This document shows, piece after piece, positions 9,869-22,753 of a stretch of 35,894 nt of DNA. Source of the stretch: a virus; IMG/VR virus record IMGVR_UViG_3300017757_002288, positions 1 through 35,894 of that record; one strand, given 5' to 3'. The position numbers were made by a program, and so were the translations under genes. Numbering within the stretch: position 1 is the first letter of the stretch; every line of letters begins with the position of its first letter. The notes under the pieces were generated by a model. It searched no databases and was not told the origin of the DNA. It worked only from the letters and a program-made list of their open reading frames with translations.

Positions 9869-10176
9869 CACTTGTTAGCCTCCTTTGTCGCTTTGTCGTG
9901 AACATGTAACATGAATAGACCATAATGTAATACCTTTAAGATATCTGCTCTATTCTTCCCACCTTTTTTTCCGTATCGTTGTGCATATTTCATAATGTTC
10001 CCGATACAAAAACCCTCACCATGACCACTGTCAATAATAAATTCAGTGGACTGGTATTTGTTTAAACTATAATGTTGTTTATAGGTGTTGTCGATATACT
10101 GGGAAAACTCATTTAAGAGTTCTCCCTCGTTATATCTGTAATCAATTTTGTTCTTTTTACCAAACATACTAATCAT
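9868..10176 (-). CDS. DUF3310-like small protein
   Basis: A 102-residue protein from the ATG at 10176; a second ATG at 10167 is also possible and lies just after the upstream stop. The conserved core is TEFIIDSGHGEGFCIGNIMKYAQRYGKKGG followed by ADILKVLHYGLFMLHVHD, which has the C-x-G-N-x-x-K-Y-x-x-R-x-G-K-K...D-x-x-K-x-x-x-Y pattern of DUF3310-type phage proteins (sometimes annotated as nucleotide-kinase-like). The biochemical role is not established. It is coupled to gp45 by a TGATG overlap. Confidence 0.75.
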   Translation of the reverse strand: MISMFGKKNKIDYRYNEGELLNEFSQYIDNTYKQHYSLNKYQSTEFIIDSGHGEGFCIGNIMKYAQRYGKKGGKNRADILKVLHYGLFMLHVHDKATKEANK

Positions 10177-11419
10177 TATACTCTGAAGACTCAGTTTCGT
10201 CAACTGGGTTTTCTGCATTCAAGTCTACTCCAGCATCAATTTTGGAGTAGAGGTCGAGGATACTATTTCTAGTCTCTTCGTCAAACCTTGAAATACACAT
10301 GGTTATTGACTTGAGTTTGTCATTGAACATTCTGAATGCATTGACAATGTGAACCAATCTTCTAGTGGTAATGACATCATCAATCGCACCTTCATAGTAG
10401 GTTTTTCTGATTATGTCTGCCCAATCTACTAGTTTGATACAGAACTCTTCGTCAACATCACCAGTAAGTGCCATTTCTTTTTTAAGAATACTTCTCTCAG
10501 TAGTAACTGGTGGGTATTCTTGTTGCATTGTGATTGCAAACCTTTCCAACATGGCTTCATTCATGATTTGAGTTCCTATGAACTTTCCATCATCAGACCC
10601 TTGTCCTTTAGTGTTTGCAGTTGCAAGAATTGTGAAACCTTCTTTAGGTGAAACCCACTCACCAGTTTTCTTGATTAGGTATCCTTTACCTTCAAGAACT
10701 GATTGTAGACACATAAGTTTGTTAGAACCCAAGTCAACTTCGTCAAGAAGAAGGACAGCACCTTTTCTCATTGCTTTGATAACAGGGCCTTCTCTGAAGA
10801 CAACATTACCATTGACCAAAGTATGACCACCCATTAGGTCGTCTTCATCAGTCTCGATTGTAATGTTAACTCTGAAAAGTTCTCTCTTCAATTGAGCACA
10901 TGTTTGTTCAATCATAAGAGTTTTACCATTTCCACTTAGTCCAGTAATGAATACTGGGAAAAAGATTTTGGACTTGATAATTCCTTTAACGTCTTTGAAA
11001 TGTCCAAAAGGAACATAGTTAGACATCTTCTCGGGAATGATTTTAATATTGTCATTCAAGTTAACAGACTCAGTCGCAGCGGCAACTGGCATGTTTTGTG
11101 GAGCAACTGGTGGTGCAACTGCAACCACTTGAGGTGCTGGATTTACAGGAGGAACAACTGCAGATTCAGAATATCCACCATTGTATCCACCGATAATTTG
11201 GGTAAGATTAAAGACACCATTGTCTCTAAAATTGTACCTAGAAGATTTTACCCAATATGGGAACGTCCCAGTATTGTCAATTTCTTCTTTAGTAAAAACC
11301 GATTGATTCGGATACTTAGATACCAGTGTATCTAAAAATTCCTTCCTATCGGGTGTGTAGTGAAACGGCTTTCCCATCACGTCAATCGATTCACTTCTGT
11401 CATAACTTCTTTTATCCAT
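10169..11419 (-). CDS. cobS: CobS-like / MoxR-type AAA+ ATPase
   Basis: A 416-residue protein. The N-terminal region (1-75) is followed by a Pro/Val/Ala-rich linker (88-115) and an AAA+ domain with Walker A GLSGNGKT (160-167), DEDDLMGGHTLVNGNVVFREGPVIKAMRKG, Walker B LLLDEVD (223-229) and a TILATANTKGQG sensor. In marine T4-like phages this family is commonly annotated as cobaltochelatase subunit CobS. It pairs here with a VWA-domain protein, the usual MoxR/VWA arrangement, so a chaperone role in protein remodelling is at least as likely as a cobalamin role. An AGGAGA ribosome site and a promoter about 50 bases upstream are visible. Confidence 0.85.
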   Translation of the reverse strand: MDKRSYDRSESIDVMGKPFHYTPDRKEFLDTLVSKYPNQSVFTKEEIDNTGTFPYWVKSSRYNFRDNGVFNLTQIIGGYNGGYSESAVVPPVNPAPQVVAVAPPVAPQNMPVAAATESVNLNDNIKIIPEKMSNYVPFGHFKDVKGIIKSKIFFPVFITGLSGNGKTLMIEQTCAQLKRELFRVNITIETDEDDLMGGHTLVNGNVVFREGPVIKAMRKGAVLLLDEVDLGSNKLMCLQSVLEGKGYLIKKTGEWVSPKEGFTILATANTKGQGSDDGKFIGTQIMNEAMLERFAITMQQEYPPVTTERSILKKEMALTGDVDEEFCIKLVDWADIIRKTYYEGAIDDVITTRRLVHIVNAFRMFNDKLKSITMCISRFDEETRNSILDLYSKIDAGVDLNAENPVDETESSEYND

Positions 11420-14856: not shown

Positions 14857-15519
14857 TTAAGACGATTGTCTTAAAGATAGGTGGTTTGCGTGAAGGTCTT
14901 TTGTTCTTTCGTCTGTAATTATACGACTTCTATTACTACTATACCATTGTGATATAGTGTACCTAGAACCTCTTCTGACGGGGTATACGCCGTGTTCTAA
15001 GTCGATTCCTCTGAATGCTATACCTGTACCCCTTACTGGTGTCATTATTTGACCAGTTGGGCCTTCATGTGGGAAGTAAGTTTCACCACCTCTGAATGAT
15101 TCAACGGAATCTTCGTGTCCATTTATATAGAGAATTACAGTCCATTCACGACTTGTTTCGTCCTTAATACCTTCTCTTATATCAACGTCTGAAACTGAGT
15201 CATTATGTGGTTCTTGAACACCACCGATTTTCCACTCATTTATTGCAGACATTTCGGGATATACTCTTAAACCCGAATGTTTATAGATTTCTGAGGTAAC
15301 GTCAAATGCTAATCTATTAAAGATATCACGAACCCATTGGGTATGAATGTGCAATATGTTTATTGCAGTGTAATCTGACCCGTCTCCGACTGTTCTAAGA
15401 TGCTCGTGCGTCTTCAGATACAGAATCAAGTCCTTCGATTCCTGTTCCGTTATCAGATTCGGAAGTATCAGAACTTTCTCGTTCTTGTATAGCTCTTGCG
15501 ATTGCAATTCTTGTTTCAT
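14857..15519 (-). CDS. 2OG-Fe(II) oxygenase (prolyl-4-hydroxylase-like)
   Basis: A 220-residue protein with the Fe(II)/2-oxoglutarate site H105-x-D107 (EPHNDS), H176 (DLEHGVYPV) and the 2OG-binding Arg186 (RRGSRYTIS), preceded by the typical INEWKIGG and followed by a WTVILYING / FRGGETYFP jelly-roll core. Such enzymes hydroxylate protein or small-molecule substrates and are common in marine T4-like phages; the substrate is unknown. The ATG at 15519 lies 125 bases inside the deformylase gene in another frame; the conserved start (VLILPNLITEQESKDLI) falls within that overlap, so it appears real. TAAGAGAA serves as a weak ribosome site. Confidence 0.88.
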   Translation of the reverse strand: MKQELQSQELYKNEKVLILPNLITEQESKDLILYLKTHEHLRTVGDGSDYTAINILHIHTQWVRDIFNRLAFDVTSEIYKHSGLRVYPEMSAINEWKIGGVQEPHNDSVSDVDIREGIKDETSREWTVILYINGHEDSVESFRGGETYFPHEGPTGQIMTPVRGTGIAFRGIDLEHGVYPVRRGSRYTISQWYSSNRSRIITDERTKDLHANHLSLRQSS

Positions 15520-16021
15520 AATCAATTCTCTTACGTCTCTCTTTTGGACGTGATTTTAATGCACGTTCAACTTTGAGTCTAGACGCACGTTGTATGAATA
15601 GTATTCCATTTAAATGGTCACATTCATGTTGGACACACCTTGCACCTAACCCTGTAAGGTATATAGTGTGTTCTTCACCCTCTGCGTCTTGGTATTTTAG
15701 TTCTATCTCTTTTGACCTTTTAATCATTAGATAAAGGTCGGGGAAAGATAGACAACCCTCTTTCATTAAATCTGTATCTTGAGAAACTTTAGTTATTTCG
15801 GGATTGAAGAATGCTTTGATACCACTGTCTGCAGTTCTCATTACAAATACTCTGTAATCTAATCCCAACTGATTTGCAGATAATCCAATTCCACCAAATC
15901 GTTCCATTGCACTTGCAAGATTTGTTTCAATCTCTTTTGGGTCTTCGGGTGGGTTCTCGAAATCGAAAACGGGTGGTGGTGTGCGTAAGACTTTTGAAGC
16001 CTCGTCTATCAATTCATACAT
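15395..16021 (-). CDS. def: Peptide deformylase
   Basis: A 208-residue protein with all three deformylase motifs: GGIGLSANQLG (43-53), EGCLSFP (88-94, metal ligand Cys90) and QHECDHLNG (131-139, HExxH with both histidines). The enzyme removes the formyl group from new N-termini and is a well-known auxiliary gene of marine T4-like phages. About 40 residues after the catalytic core are polar and low complexity (ESSDTSESDNGTG) and are encoded where the next gene overlaps. It starts one base after the stop of the upstream late gene. Confidence 0.95.
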   Translation of the reverse strand: MYELIDEASKVLRTPPPVFDFENPPEDPKEIETNLASAMERFGGIGLSANQLGLDYRVFVMRTADSGIKAFFNPEITKVSQDTDLMKEGCLSFPDLYLMIKRSKEIELKYQDAEGEEHTIYLTGLGARCVQHECDHLNGILFIQRASRLKVERALKSRPKERRKRIDYETRIAIARAIQERESSDTSESDNGTGIEGLDSVSEDARAS

Positions 16022-19254: not shown

Positions 19255-20318
19255 AGATAGTTATGTTCGTCCAGTGCCTCATTATATAATGACGACATAA
19301 GTTCTGCAAGAGGTTTTTTCTTCCCTTGTATCTCTAACCCGTCAATATAGTTGTTTAGTATAGTTAAGGTGTCTTCAATATCTTCTATATCATCATCACC
19401 ATAGAAATCCATATGTTTGTTATCGTCTACAACTGCAACATGTAATGGATTTGCAGAATGTAATTTATCTAAGAATGTATCAAACCAGTAAGGATTGTCC
19501 TTGTTTACTACTATTACTTTTACAAATTTGTTTGTAAATTTAGAATAGTCCATGTTTGATATTGTTTCAAAAGTTTCTTTTGTATCGTCATAGAATGATT
19601 TCTCAAACATAGTGATTGGATTTAAAACTGGGGTAAGTTCTTGAGTCTCAGTATCAAATATATGGAAGTATTTGTTATCTCCATAATCTGACCAAGTAAA
19701 TTGCATTTGAGACCCAAGATATCTGATGTTTGCAAACTCAGATTTTTGGTGGAAATGACCACTCAAAACTGTCTCAAATCTACTTACGTAAGAATGGTCA
19801 AATCCATGTTGACACGTCATGCCTGGCATCATTAGAGCACCTTCAAATTCGAAATGACCCATACACCAACTTGCCTCTGCAGTTCTTAAAAAGTCTACTG
19901 CGTCTGCATAGTTTTCGGGGTTAATCCAAGGAACAAGTGCAATATTGAATCCGTCATATTCTTTTACTTCACATTCTTGAATGACATTTACATTCTCCTC
20001 TTTGTATAATAACAACTCGGGTGAATTAACTTCATTTGTATTCTTGTAATAAGTATCATGATTACCTAAAATCAAATCCATAGTAATACCACGTTCAGTC
20101 ATTGGGTCAATGAAATGTTTGATATTTGCTTTCATAGAAGCAAAGTTTATATACTTTCTCCTATCAAAGTAATCTCCTAAGTGGATTATGTGATTTATTT
20201 TGTGTTCGTCCAAGTATGGAAAGAACACTTCATTGTAGAATCTTCCTTGGTAATTTGACATTTCTATCATATCACCTCGGACACCACAATGGGTATCATT
20301 TAATAAGGCTATTTTCAT
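19251..20318 (-). CDS. 47: Recombination nuclease subunit gp47 (Mre11/SbcD-like)
   Basis: A 355-residue metallophosphoesterase of T4 gp47 length (339). Motifs: NDTHCG (D8, H10), HLGDYFDRR, LILGNHDTYY, and later WCMGHFEF and LSGHFHQK, which together form the two-metal nuclease site. It is the nuclease of the gp46/gp47 complex. Its start overlaps the gp55 stop by 4 bases, and gp46 follows with an ATGA overlap, so gp55-gp47-gp46 form one operon as in T4. Confidence 0.96.
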   Translation of the reverse strand: MKIALLNDTHCGVRGDMIEMSNYQGRFYNEVFFPYLDEHKINHIIHLGDYFDRRKYINFASMKANIKHFIDPMTERGITMDLILGNHDTYYKNTNEVNSPELLLYKEENVNVIQECEVKEYDGFNIALVPWINPENYADAVDFLRTAEASWCMGHFEFEGALMMPGMTCQHGFDHSYVSRFETVLSGHFHQKSEFANIRYLGSQMQFTWSDYGDNKYFHIFDTETQELTPVLNPITMFEKSFYDDTKETFETISNMDYSKFTNKFVKVIVVNKDNPYWFDTFLDKLHSANPLHVAVVDDNKHMDFYGDDDIEDIEDTLTILNNYIDGLEIQGKKKPLAELMSSLYNEALDEHNYL

Positions 20319-20872
20319 TCAGTAAATTTTTCTAGATTAGTTGTTTTTTTAACTTTTTTTGTTCGGGATTTACGAGGTTCGTATTCAACACGATTCATAT
20401 TTTCTTGCATCCATTCAACATTAGTATTGATTAGAGTTGGGTCGTGTTGTCCGTCAATTGTATCGAATGCACTTGTTATCATTCCAGCAGCGTCCGTGGC
20501 CTGTTGTTTAATGAAGACCTGTTTTTTCTCCTTTTGGATTCTTCTGAGGAATGCATAATAACAAATTTGTGTTATGTATGCAAATGCGTTACTTGATTTT
20601 TCGGGGTTGAAATTACCGATATACTGAATACAATTTTCAATTGCATCACATATCATTTCATCTCTGTATGTGTAGTTGATAAAATTAGGACGAGTCGATA
20701 ATCGAGTCGCAATCTTATAGATACATTCACCAATGTATTCTGTCATTTGAGGTTTGACTTTACCTTTTTCTTCTGCAAGTTTACATGAAATGTTAAACTC
20801 GGAGACTGCCGCAGTGAACTCTTTGTTATTAACGTAGTGTTCGGCCTTTTTAGGGTCTTTTTTAGTAGTCAT
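20315..20872 (-). CDS. 55: Late-transcription sigma factor gp55
   Basis: A 185-residue protein (MTTKKDPKKAEHYVNNKEF...) matching T4 gp55 in length (185). The middle (MICDAIENCIQYIGNFNPEKSSNAFAYITQICYYAFLRRIQKEKKQ) is the reduced sigma region 2 that contacts core polymerase and melts late promoters. The C-terminus is basic and ends with NLEKFTE, a candidate clamp-contact tail. It directs host polymerase to the TATAAATA boxes seen across this window. I chose the ATG at 20872 over the GTG at 20887 because the -10 TATAAT overlaps the latter and would put +1 on the ATG. Confidence 0.93.
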   Translation of the reverse strand: MTTKKDPKKAEHYVNNKEFTAAVSEFNISCKLAEEKGKVKPQMTEYIGECIYKIATRLSTRPNFINYTYRDEMICDAIENCIQYIGNFNPEKSSNAFAYITQICYYAFLRRIQKEKKQVFIKQQATDAAGMITSAFDTIDGQHDPTLINTNVEWMQENMNRVEYEPRKSRTKKVKKTTNLEKFTE

Positions 20873-20878
20873 GAATCT

Positions 20879-20906
20879 ATTATACACTAAATCTCTTATT
20901 TTGTAA
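20879..20906 (-). promoter_or_regulatory. Sigma70-like promoter giving a leaderless gp55 mRNA
   Basis: -10 TATAAT (20879-20884) followed by AGATTC and the ATG. A -35-like TTACAA (20901-20906) lies 16 bases upstream. The last six bases before the ATG nearly match those of the CobT-like gene (AGAATC). Confidence 0.65.
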
Positions 20907-21006: not shown

Positions 21007-21144
21007 CTAATAAGAGATAGTATCTTTAACTCTACTCTTCATAAACGATTGTATCTCCACTGCACGACTCATTCTATCTATCTCACCAACGGCAAGATAA
21101 AACATACATAAACCTACAGTTGTACCTATTATATAGTGTTTCAT
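21007..21144 (-). CDS. Tiny membrane protein at the end of the cytochrome cassette
   Basis: A 45-residue protein (MKHYIIGTTVGLCMFYLAVG...) with a hydrophobic N-terminal segment (residues 4-19) and a polar, partly helical tail (EIDRMSRAVEIQSFMKSRVKD). Its ATG overlaps the stop of the CxxC protein gene (ATGA). No family is recognised. The following ~120 bases before gp55 hold no gene, only a short inverted repeat. Confidence 0.6.
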   Translation of the reverse strand: MKHYIIGTTVGLCMFYLAVGEIDRMSRAVEIQSFMKSRVKDTISY

Positions 21145-21293
21145 TTTATCTTCCCTAATTTCTCGTCACAATGTGGACATTTGAGGGGGATATCTAATAG
21201 TTTTGTGATTGCAACATGTTTATCCCAATCCTCTCTTTCTTTCGGAGGTGAGTTAAACATTTCACTCGGTAATGGGAATCCTACGTGTTTCAC
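21141..21293 (-). CDS. Small CxxC protein, GTG start
   Basis: A 50-residue soluble protein starting at a GTG that overlaps the stop of the 60-residue membrane gene (GTGA). It has FPLPSEMFNSPPKEREDWDKH and a C-terminal C-P-H-C motif (LKCPHCDEKLGKIK), a half zinc-ribbon or thiol site. Overlap at both ends supports it as a real gene of the cytochrome cassette. Role unknown; metal or heme handling is possible but only suggested by the context. Confidence 0.6.
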   Translation of the reverse strand: MKHVGFPLPSEMFNSPPKEREDWDKHVAITKLLDIPLKCPHCDEKLGKIK

Positions 21294-21472
21294 TTACCCA
21301 ATCCTATATTGATTAACCAAAATGCAAGTAACATAAATCCAAATACTACTACTTGAACTACTGACATTACTGCAACTTGTTTCATGGGGTGAACTTCAAC
21401 AATTTTCTCAATCCAAGATTCATCAGGTGATAAGTTAACGACTTGTAATACTTTCTCTTCAGTCGTCTTCAC
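21290..21472 (-). CDS. Small single-pass membrane protein next to cytochrome c
   Basis: A 60-residue protein with a charged N-terminal half (MKTTEEKVLQVVNLSPDESW) and one membrane segment at about 33-56 (VAVMSVVQVVVFGFMLLAFWLI). Its start overlaps the cytochrome gene stop by 4 bases. Size and layout resemble accessory subunits of respiratory complexes, but no sequence motif confirms this. Confidence 0.7.
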   Translation of the reverse strand: MKTTEEKVLQVVNLSPDESWIEKIVEVHPMKQVAVMSVVQVVVFGFMLLAFWLINIGLGK

Positions 21473-21912
21473 TTTAGTTCTACCTCTATAAACTTACCAA
21501 TCATATTGATATCTGCATCACTCAACATTCCTGCTTGAGCCCACATAGTAGAAGACATTGCACCGACTGTTTCTCTGTTCTTGTATGCATTAAGTCTACC
21601 TACAATATAATCTGCAGTTTGACCTTTAAGTGCTGGGAATACTGCCATTCCTTCACCATTCTGACCATGACAAGCGGCACAACCCGCCCATAGACTTCTG
21701 ATATCACTGAACTCATCTAAGTTTGCAAGTGCCTGTTTTCTCTGTTCTATTTCAGCAGGTGTTCCGAATTGTTCAACATAGTCAACATAACACTGACCCG
21801 TGCAACTATGTCCTCCAGTTCCACCTGTATATTCTAAATTTGGATATATCTTAAATCCAAAAAACACACCTATTGCAAGTGTGCATAGTAATGCTTGTCC
21901 TAGTTCTCTCAT
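21469..21912 (-). CDS. Membrane-anchored class I cytochrome c
   Basis: A 147-residue protein: an N-terminal membrane anchor or uncleaved signal (residues 5-20, GQALLCTLAIGVFFGF), an intermediate region with a second cysteine pair (HSCTGQC, 35-41), and a cytochrome c domain with heme motif C78-A-A-C81-H82 followed by GQNGEGMAVFPALKGQ. The axial methionine is probably M119 or M123 (GAMSSTMW). It would carry electrons in the periplasm, with host Ccm machinery needed for heme attachment. It lies among five tiny genes (four membrane proteins and a CxxC protein) in one overlapping operon. A phage-borne cytochrome c is unusual; assembly error is unlikely because all junctions overlap and phage genes flank both sides. 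Confidence 0.9.
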   Translation of the reverse strand: MRELGQALLCTLAIGVFFGFKIYPNLEYTGGTGGHSCTGQCYVDYVEQFGTPAEIEQRKQALANLDEFSDIRSLWAGCAACHGQNGEGMAVFPALKGQTADYIVGRLNAYKNRETVGAMSSTMWAQAGMLSDADINMIGKFIEVELK

Positions 21913-21913
21913 A

Positions 21914-22000
21914 TTATATTCCTGTTATTGATATTACAGACACTAAGAAGACAGCCACAAGTGTGGTTATCTCCAAAGTATCTCTGAGTTTATGTTTCAT
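21914..22000 (-). CDS. Very small membrane peptide, 28 residues
   Basis: The frame encodes MKHKLRDTLEITTLVAVFLV and eight more residues, essentially one membrane helix with a basic N-terminus. Its ATG overlaps the stop of the 59-residue gene (TAATG) and it ends one base before the cytochrome ATG, while its last codons (GGAATA) supply the cytochrome ribosome site. It could be a real subunit or a coupling peptide. Confidence 0.5.
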   Translation of the reverse strand: MKHKLRDTLEITTLVAVFLVSVISITGI

Positions 22001-22179
22001 TATATCATTCTCATAGATGATGCGTAAAACATTATGATGAATGGTAGTAAGAAAGGAAGAGTCATTAGCACTAGAAATTCGATAGTGTCAACTAACTTTC
22101 GTTTCTGAGGACGAAGGTCGTGGTTGACTTCTCTAGCTTTTCGCACCATGCTCTTCGCAAATAAAGTTGCTGTGGTCAT
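22000..22179 (-). CDS. Small membrane protein heading the cytochrome cassette
   Basis: A 59-residue protein: a basic N-terminal half (MTTATLFAKSMVRKAREVNH, RPQKRKL) and a hydrophobic helix (about 33-53, TIEFLVLMTLPFLLPFIIMFY). An AGGA ribosome site precedes the ATG at 22179. It is the first gene after a sigma70-like promoter and is coupled to the next by TAATG. No family is recognised. Confidence 0.62.
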   Translation of the reverse strand: MTTATLFAKSMVRKAREVNHDLRPQKRKLVDTIEFLVLMTLPFLLPFIIMFYASSMRMI

Positions 22180-22232
22180 GGTTTTCCTAAAAGTTAGTTA
22201 TAAATATTTTGTATAAGTATATATAAGTCTAA

Positions 22233-22261
22233 ATTATACGCACTTATTTAGAAAAAAACAA
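22233..22261 (-). promoter_or_regulatory. Sigma70-like promoter for the cytochrome cassette
   Basis: -35 TTGTTT (22256-22261), 17-base spacer, -10 TATAAT (22233-22238), just after the stop of the Sm-like gene. It lacks the CACTTTTT spacer core of the other early promoters. The leader would be about 47 bases. Confidence 0.6.
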
Positions 22262-22264
22262 ATC

Positions 22265-22753
22265 CTAATGAAGTTTTGTTTTGTCCTTGGGTGGGATTGC
22301 AGTTTCAAATTCACTCTCACCAAGTTCTTCATAAAATTCATCAAATAAATCTTCGTCTCTTACATTTTCTAAAATGGAATCAACTGCTTTTTTCATGTAC
22401 TCTTTCGAAATACTTTTTAAATCATTAGTTAGTGGTATGGATTTATCCTCTACCATTCTTAACCAGTTAGAAGAGGCTTCGTCATAGAACGGAATGAACT
22501 GTTGATTCATGCTACTTCTATGTAAGACTTGGTCAAAAGGAATCTTGACAATAGGGTCTTCACTCATTGGTGCATACGGATAAAACGTTGCAAGAGTTGA
22601 ATTGATTGGTTGTTGAACTGATAAATGACAAATCATAGGTAGAGTAACTTCGAGACCTTCATTTGAGTCTCTAACCATTCCTACAAACTCTGCACCAGTT
22701 TTAAGTTTGATAACTTCGTATTTTTGAGGTATTAAATCTTTTGGAGTTGCCAT
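22265..22753 (-). CDS. Sm-like-fold candidate protein downstream of UvsW
   Basis: A 162-residue protein. The N-terminal 30 residues (YEVIKLKTGAEFVGMVRDSNEGLEVTLPM) look like the first strands of an LSm/Sm fold (KLKTG-x-E-x-x-G-x-V), and the C-terminal half is helical and acidic. Similar small proteins accompany UvsW in marine T4-like phages as far as I recall, without known function. The start overlaps the UvsW stop by one base. RNA binding is only a structural guess. Confidence 0.72.
   Translation of the reverse strand: MATPKDLIPQKYEVIKLKTGAEFVGMVRDSNEGLEVTLPMICHLSVQQPINSTLATFYPYAPMSEDPIVKIPFDQVLHRSSMNQQFIPFYDEASSNWLRMVEDKSIPLTNDLKSISKEYMKKAVDSILENVRDEDLFDEFYEELGESEFETAIPPKDKTKLH

Follow-up and report, generated by a model that had tools for sequence, protein, structure and literature searches.

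What might a marine phage gain from carrying a c-type cytochrome, and does this protein act together with the very small genes among which it is encoded? The locus that raises the question lies in the window, meaning here the whole stretch of 35,894 nt analysed (positions 1 to 35,894 of IMG/VR virus record IMGVR_UViG_3300017757_002288). The source is a T4-like marine phage, with a portal protein 56% identical to those of Pelagibacter phage Mosig and Methylophilales phage Melnitz. Six tightly coupled genes are found on the minus strand between up162 and a gp55-like gene; with their flanks, and in the direction of transcription, the features are:

22265-22753, minus strand: up162, the 162-residue upstream neighbour and a fixed flank (58 relatives; weak PHROG matches only)
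22180-22264, minus strand: intergenic sequence 5' of m59, likely to be the operon promoter, with CTAAATAAG-TGCG-TATAAT at about 22251-22233 (aligned in 40 distinct intergenic sequences; putative function)
22000-22179, minus strand: m59, a 59-residue membrane protein (in 58 of 61 distinct intervals; dN/dS 0.35; KD 2.33)
21914-22000, minus strand: m28, a 28-residue membrane peptide (in 40 of 61 distinct intervals; dN/dS 0.29; KD 2.07)
21469-21912, minus strand: the c-type cytochrome, 147 aa (PF00034; invariant columns in 56 sequences; AlphaFold model; Foldseek and VIA matches)
21290-21472, minus strand: m60, a 60-residue membrane protein with a GTG start (in 50 of 61 intervals; 37-sequence alignment; dN/dS 0.19; KD 2.53)
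21141-21293, minus strand: the CPHC protein, 50 aa, soluble, with a GTG start (in 3 of 61 intervals; 23 viral relatives)
21007-21144, minus strand: m45, a 45-residue probable membrane protein (in 47 of 61 intervals; KD 1.57, borderline)
20315-20887, minus strand: gp55-like late sigma factor, the downstream neighbour and a fixed flank (phrog_234, E 1.4e-57)

The original prediction of a cytochrome with a CAACH heme site beside genes of 59, 28, 60, 50 and 45 codons was borne out, the cytochrome matching Pfam PF00034 at 33.5 bits (gathering cut-off 21.3). The genes were also said to be all joined by overlaps, which holds for four of the five junctions (1, 4, 4 and 4 nt), m28 and the cytochrome being separated by a 1 nt gap. 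Four membrane helices had been proposed; by hydropathy (KD, 19-residue window), m59, m28 and m60 have one each, m45 is borderline and the CPHC protein has none. Median dN/dS values for the cassette genes range from 0.14 to 0.35, as calculated by the pairwise Nei-Gojobori method on ungapped sequences, the figure for m45 coming from 14 pairs. The suggested search of marine viral contigs returned 250 relatives of the cytochrome, 131 of m59, 103 of m60 and 23 of the CPHC protein. A BFVD search produced no match at E<=0.001, and Rfam and tRNA scans of the window found nothing. None of the six proteins matches a known defence family in PADLOC, and an anti-phage defence role was rejected on this basis. 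Elsewhere in the window, a peptide deformylase gene (PF01327) is found at 15395-16021 on the minus strand.

The cytochrome is very probably a real c-type cytochrome, for which covalent heme attachment is predicted, and its assignment as a mono-heme class I protein with the c554/c552/c4 fold is well supported. It consists of an N-terminal anchor (about residues 4-22), a linker containing C37xxxC41, the heme site C78-A-A-C81-H82 and a probable axial ligand, Met123, which aligns with the corresponding c554 region in phmmer, ligation being predicted from sequence. Residues C37, C41, C78, C81, H82 and M123 are invariant in 56 aligned cytochromes. Across 87 distinct family members, all have the CxxCH motif (CAACH in 86, CAGCH in one), 86 have the Cys-x3-Cys pair (the exception, L142, starts past that site) and 80 have an [ST]MW motif. 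The AlphaFold model (pLDDT 85.0, pTM 0.60) matches cytochromes c546/556 (Z 14.7), c554 (Z 12.8) and c552 (Z 12.8), as well as the cytochrome c4 chain of the Pseudomonas bc1-cbb3 supercomplex (Z 12.1), over approximately residues 66-147; the anchor and linker have no matched fold in the structure comparison. The median pairwise dN/dS of 0.22 indicates purifying selection.

The description of the protein as membrane-anchored is correct for the window copy, but does not extend to the family as a whole: an M-x-x-L-G anchor was scored in 70 of the 87, the other 17 including the truncated L142 and also L039, whose anchor starts differently. In L200, L211, L355, L375 and others, the anchor is replaced by a different leader, in some cases apparently cleavable, with the Cys-x3-Cys and heme parts unchanged.

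The nearest cellular matches are confined to the heme domain. The proteobacterial class I cytochromes c554, c552 and c4 (PDB 2zzs, 8yts, 1cno and 1etp) share the heme domain, fold, CxxCH and distal Met motif (phmmer E 7.5e-14 to 2zzs), to which the phage family adds the anchor and the Cys-x3-Cys linker; c4-type proteins have two heme domains to its one. The heme domain of CcoP/FixP from cbb3 oxidase is similar too (3mk7_C, E 1.8e-05), yet the phage protein has one heme rather than two and scores 17.4 bits against the NCBIfam ccoP cut-off of 179.95. CcoP, c4 and other diheme identities were rejected, there being one CxxCH in the 147 aa protein. Membrane-anchored cytochromes c of the cy and CycM type consist of an N-terminal anchor, a linker and one heme domain, an architecture like that seen here; the CcoH/cy chain 6xkw gave a weak structural match (E 0.76). 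That the Cys-x3-Cys linker is specific to the phage family, and absent from the cellular relatives checked, is well supported.

Relatives of the gene are concentrated in viral sequence. In IMG/VR, 250 of 256 pattern-matching stretches proved to be cytochrome relatives, of which the best 80 were fetched. None of the 50,697 INPHARED records matches either the window cytochrome or a relative with another leader; hence no isolate there carries the gene. A collection representing each species by a single genome yielded 109 candidate stretches, of which 19 could be confirmed; only two are close (75% and 60%), and both of these lie in phage-like nrdA/nrdB surroundings. The whole protein matches 21 of 398 Pseudomonadota genomes at E<=1e-9, the best at 54% identity and in the heme domain only, while its first 72 residues match none of the 398; as a control, the 72-residue query recovered five of six viral or MAG records, the sixth (G013) lacking the cytochrome. 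The neighbours on viral contigs include late sigma factor, uvsW-like helicase and gp47-like genes. These phage neighbours, together with the 250 viral relatives, led us to reject a stray host gene or contamination, in agreement with the original prediction: the gene is conserved, under purifying selection and carried on contigs that also encode phage replication and structural proteins. Its position among phage genes on viral contigs, its conserved active site and the purifying selection are the marks of an auxiliary gene, and on sequence evidence it is best explained as an auxiliary metabolic gene that is mobile in T4-like marine phages.

The window locus allows gain and loss of the gene to be followed between fixed flanks. 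Spans from up162 to gp55 were found in 138 loci, giving 61 intervals that are distinct by their letters, rather than independent lineages, and that come partly from scans seeded with the cytochrome and m60; m59 is present in 58 of these, m60 in 50, m45 in 47, m28 in 40, the cytochrome in 26 and the CPHC gene in 3. The scan seeded with up162 alone gave 29 distinct intervals, with m59 in 26, m60 and m45 in 19 each, m28 in 14, the cytochrome in 11 and the CPHC gene in one. When mapped onto a tree of four flanking proteins for the 61 intervals, presence of the cytochrome requires 12 gains or losses, at least 10 of which are forced by well-supported branches. Nearly identical phages can differ in whether they have it (L176 and L178 versus L177; L021 and L054 versus L106; L009 versus L181; L020 versus L095). 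In the last of these pairs, a single clean 443 nt block accounts for the difference: it comprises the entire cytochrome gene and is bordered at either end by a TAATG stop/start junction, the sequences beyond it being 98-99% identical. Messier replacement, in which neighbouring small genes change too, is seen in other pairs. The cytochrome slot is occupied in seven of the 61 intervals by another gene, F72, never found with the cytochrome in the 26 intervals that have one, although this is a weak association as the sequences are related.

Other slots are used as well. A location found in many phages is the gap between nrdB and glutaredoxin, where the cytochrome is in some cases accompanied by m60 or different tiny membrane genes; the identity of the nrdA, nrdB, glutaredoxin and ferritin neighbours was confirmed by Pfam (for nrdB-glutaredoxin, in one set). 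Six distinct copies follow a nucleotidyltransferase gene, with a ferritin gene next in five, and this arrangement, context C, lacks all of the small genes. At L030 (10457-10894) and related context C loci, a ferritin-like gene directly follows both the cytochrome and a fusion of cytidylyltransferase and mannose-phosphate isomerase. The slots are thus m28/m60 in the window locus (context A), nrdB/glutaredoxin, and beside the ferritin gene. Away from the window locus, m59, m28 and m45 do not accompany the cytochrome. Among the 34 distinct copies that belong to neither context A nor context C (L211 having been moved to the window context, as m59 is present), m60 is within 600 nt in 15 and glutaredoxin within 600 nt in 32, the exceptions being L025 and L037; glutaredoxin is upstream of the cytochrome in L023, L053 and L303, and downstream in the other copies. 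In context A, no glutaredoxin was found within 3 kb of the cytochrome. A cytochrome tree of 59 sequences, which left out rows shorter than 135 aa from the 68 distinct, requires at least 14 changes of context against a least possible four. Hence repeated movement of the cytochrome between fixed slots, keeping the operon's tight stop/start spacing, is well supported.

To what extent, then, are the six genes a unit? It had been proposed that they look like one miniature respiratory or electron-shunt module, which would mean that the cytochrome and small membrane proteins form a single complex on a host oxidase. As this would lead one to expect, 22 of the 26 cytochrome-bearing intervals carry m59, m28, m60 and m45 together (the remaining four have m59 and F86, a divergent m60-like protein), and m60 adjoins the cytochrome in the nrdB slot too. 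However, the co-occurrence is not obligate: 35 of the 61 intervals have no cytochrome and most of these keep m59, m60 and m45, the CPHC gene is rare (3 of 61), and the cytochromes of context C do without any small gene. The nrdB slot provides a further comparison, made with a query blind to the cytochrome, which gave 80 loci; after merging identical gaps and dropping two loci without glutaredoxin, 61 distinct nrdB-glutaredoxin gaps remained. Of these, 21 contain the cytochrome, which should not be read as a population rate since the query came from a cytochrome-bearing locus and took the best 80 of at least 600 matches; 20 contain m60, six both and 26 neither. The two genes therefore look independent in this slot, and m60 was rejected as an obligate partner. 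It also lies beside curli genes, even fused to CsgF. A single complex is accordingly improbable. Loss of the tiny ORFs from relatives keeping the cytochrome had been named as the observation that would count against a module; inside the window locus the reverse is seen, the tiny genes staying while the cytochrome goes. The best explanation is that the cytochrome slot is hosted by a set of tiny membrane genes that is older and more constant; these may act on the same membrane but have no need of the cytochrome.

A gene so often missing, and moving so much, might instead be a non-functional passenger or an assembly artefact. Yet the heme site is intact in 87 of 87 copies, dN/dS is 0.22 and the gene is found on many independent contigs, which in the main refutes this idea and makes it scarcely credible.

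The tiny proteins themselves offer few similarities. In 37 sequences of m60, residues L9, Q10, N13, P16, H28, P29, M30, Q32, Q40, F44 and M47 are invariant, with H28-P29-M30 just before the helix, and the model is a long helix only (pTM 0.43). It has no Pfam family and no significant PDB match, and its PHROG matches are weak only (three families, best E 0.034). Sixteen of the 37 members weakly resemble the membrane segment of DesA fatty acid desaturases (best E 3.4e-4), a stretch that a bacterial ORF of 401 residues also weakly resembles; the ORF has weak similarity to m60 as well. Three of the gaps scored as having neither gene (L373, L374 and L396) contain an m60-like helix below the search threshold with a different N-terminal part, and the m60 group may belong to a wider superfamily with F86. 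No relatives of m59 or m28 were found in Pfam or PHROGs. The best Pfam match of the CPHC protein, at 13.8 bits, is below the cut-off; it is possibly half of a zinc ribbon.

Genes for m60 adjoin the cytochrome or curli genes, or occupy nrdB gaps. Two contigs, L118 and L120, encode at about 9983-10552 an m60-type membrane segment fused in frame to CsgF, which would fit a helix with its C terminus outside the cytoplasm. The window has curli genes of its own: a protein with curlin repeats, which passes the PF07012 cut-off at 26.8 bits, is encoded at 1862-2497 on the minus strand beside FecR-like, CsgG and CsgF genes. CsgA and CsgB are missing in pelagimyophages, according to the available parts of PMC7029224; hence the curlin-repeat protein may be a missing fibre subunit.

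Expression of the cassette from one promoter, as originally proposed, is plausible. Some 55-73 nt upstream of m59 is the element CTAAATAAG-TGCG-TATAAT, which is kept in most of the 40 distinct intergenic sequences, with or without the cytochrome; a generic sigma-70 scan found sites no more numerous than in shuffled sequences. A different, late-promoter-like motif, TATAAATA, occurs 11 times in the window against 2.8 expected, 10 of the 11 being on the coding (minus) strand and several just upstream of structural genes; the cassette has none. As the cassette element differs from TATAAATA and is kept without the cytochrome, it is likely that the operon is expressed on a schedule of its own, from a promoter that appears to belong to the small genes, not the cytochrome.

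These patterns bear on whether the cassette acts in lysis or superinfection, the small membrane proteins depolarising or sealing the membrane and the cytochrome tuning the proton motive force as a lysis timer. The tiny proteins, four with one helix each in this account, would suit such a role, and m60 relatives in other contigs adjoin endolysin-like, holin-like and curli genes. However, the lack of the TATAAATA motif separates the cassette from the structural genes, occurrence in the nrdB slot points to expression at the stage of DNA metabolism, and the PADLOC result gives no match to a defence family. We regard this role as highly doubtful.

The explanation we favour, with a probability of about 0.55, is that the cytochrome is an electron carrier in respiration: the mobile auxiliary gene would supply infected cells with a periplasmic mono-heme carrier and so allow respiration to continue. 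Of the two roles originally suggested, sustaining or diverting electron flow, this corresponds to the first. The protein would reach the periplasm by its N-terminal signal-anchor, or by the other leader in some relatives, and host Ccm enzymes would attach the heme. Tethered to the membrane, the carrier could then pass electrons from the host bc1 complex, or another periplasmic donor, to a terminal oxidase. The simplest benefit would be to sustain the proton motive force and ATP supply during phage DNA synthesis. Plastocyanin is a phage gene in cyanophages, for which plastocyanin-type carriers are thought to do likewise. Counting against this explanation, 35 of the 61 versions of the locus do without the cytochrome. 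The main facts that oppose it are the glutaredoxin neighbourhood (32 of the 34 copies outside contexts A and C), which a purely respiratory role does not explain, and the invariant Cys-x3-Cys, which has no place in a plain electron carrier.

Since respiration leaves both the redox-gene neighbourhood and the cysteine pair unexplained, a part in redox poise deserves consideration, although it is rather unlikely. The cytochrome would here drain electrons elsewhere, or handle periplasmic peroxide, iron or heme, so shielding phage enzymes that depend on iron, class I ribonucleotide reductase among them. Its recurrent neighbours are indeed redox and iron genes (nrdA, nrdB and glutaredoxin; ferritin), and glutaredoxin is close by in those 32 of 34 copies. 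However, ribonucleotide reductase and glutaredoxin are cytoplasmic whereas c-type cytochromes are periplasmic, making direct contact impossible, and context A lacks a nearby glutaredoxin. The genes nrdA, nrdB and glutaredoxin form an ordinary T4-like operon, so that adjacency may reflect only a shared insertion site. A more speculative idea, which we consider improbable, is that this is a virus-specific class of cytochrome c, unlike the cellular carriers, in which the Cys-x3-Cys linker and heme form a periplasmic thiol- or metal-linked redox device, swapped via a few set slots with small membrane proteins, and bringing the respiration and redox balance of the host under phage control as DNA is replicated.

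A carrier that sustains respiration would have a parallel in cyanophages, which carry photosynthetic electron-transport genes including PTOX (PMC5082946, from the parts available). These likewise are phage-borne carriers or oxidases that may keep electron flow going; however, the cyanophage proteins use copper or diiron and serve photosynthesis, whereas here a heme protein would serve respiration, in phages with cultured relatives infecting heterotrophs. Pelagimyophages (PMC7029224) and Melnitz-like methylophages (PMC9004378) are also T4-like, with curli genes and the 56% identical portal, and the word "cytochrome" is absent from the main texts of both papers as available. In the literature searched, which was not exhaustive and was available in part (including PMC7029224, PMC9004378, PMC3474794, PMC8115048, PMC11480375, PMC8190135, PMC3877843 and PMC5082946), we found no description of a comparable c-type cytochrome from a phage. 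Closest among the same partial texts are PMC3474794, which reports virus-fraction reads for subunit I of a cbb3-type oxidase, and PMC8190135, which reports a phage SoxD that has cytochrome motifs; PMC8115048 saw no cytochromes in its phages. Respiratory genes in viromes are open to the objection of cellular contamination, as set out in the available part of PMC3877843. In the present case, the gene is located within phage operons and is gained and lost cleanly. The swap of this single gene between nearly identical phages also constitutes a natural experiment on the role of the cytochrome. Cyanophage genes that prop up photosynthesis are well known; if the respiratory explanation is true, phages of ocean heterotrophs would do for respiration, by means of a heme protein, what cyanophages do for photosynthesis.
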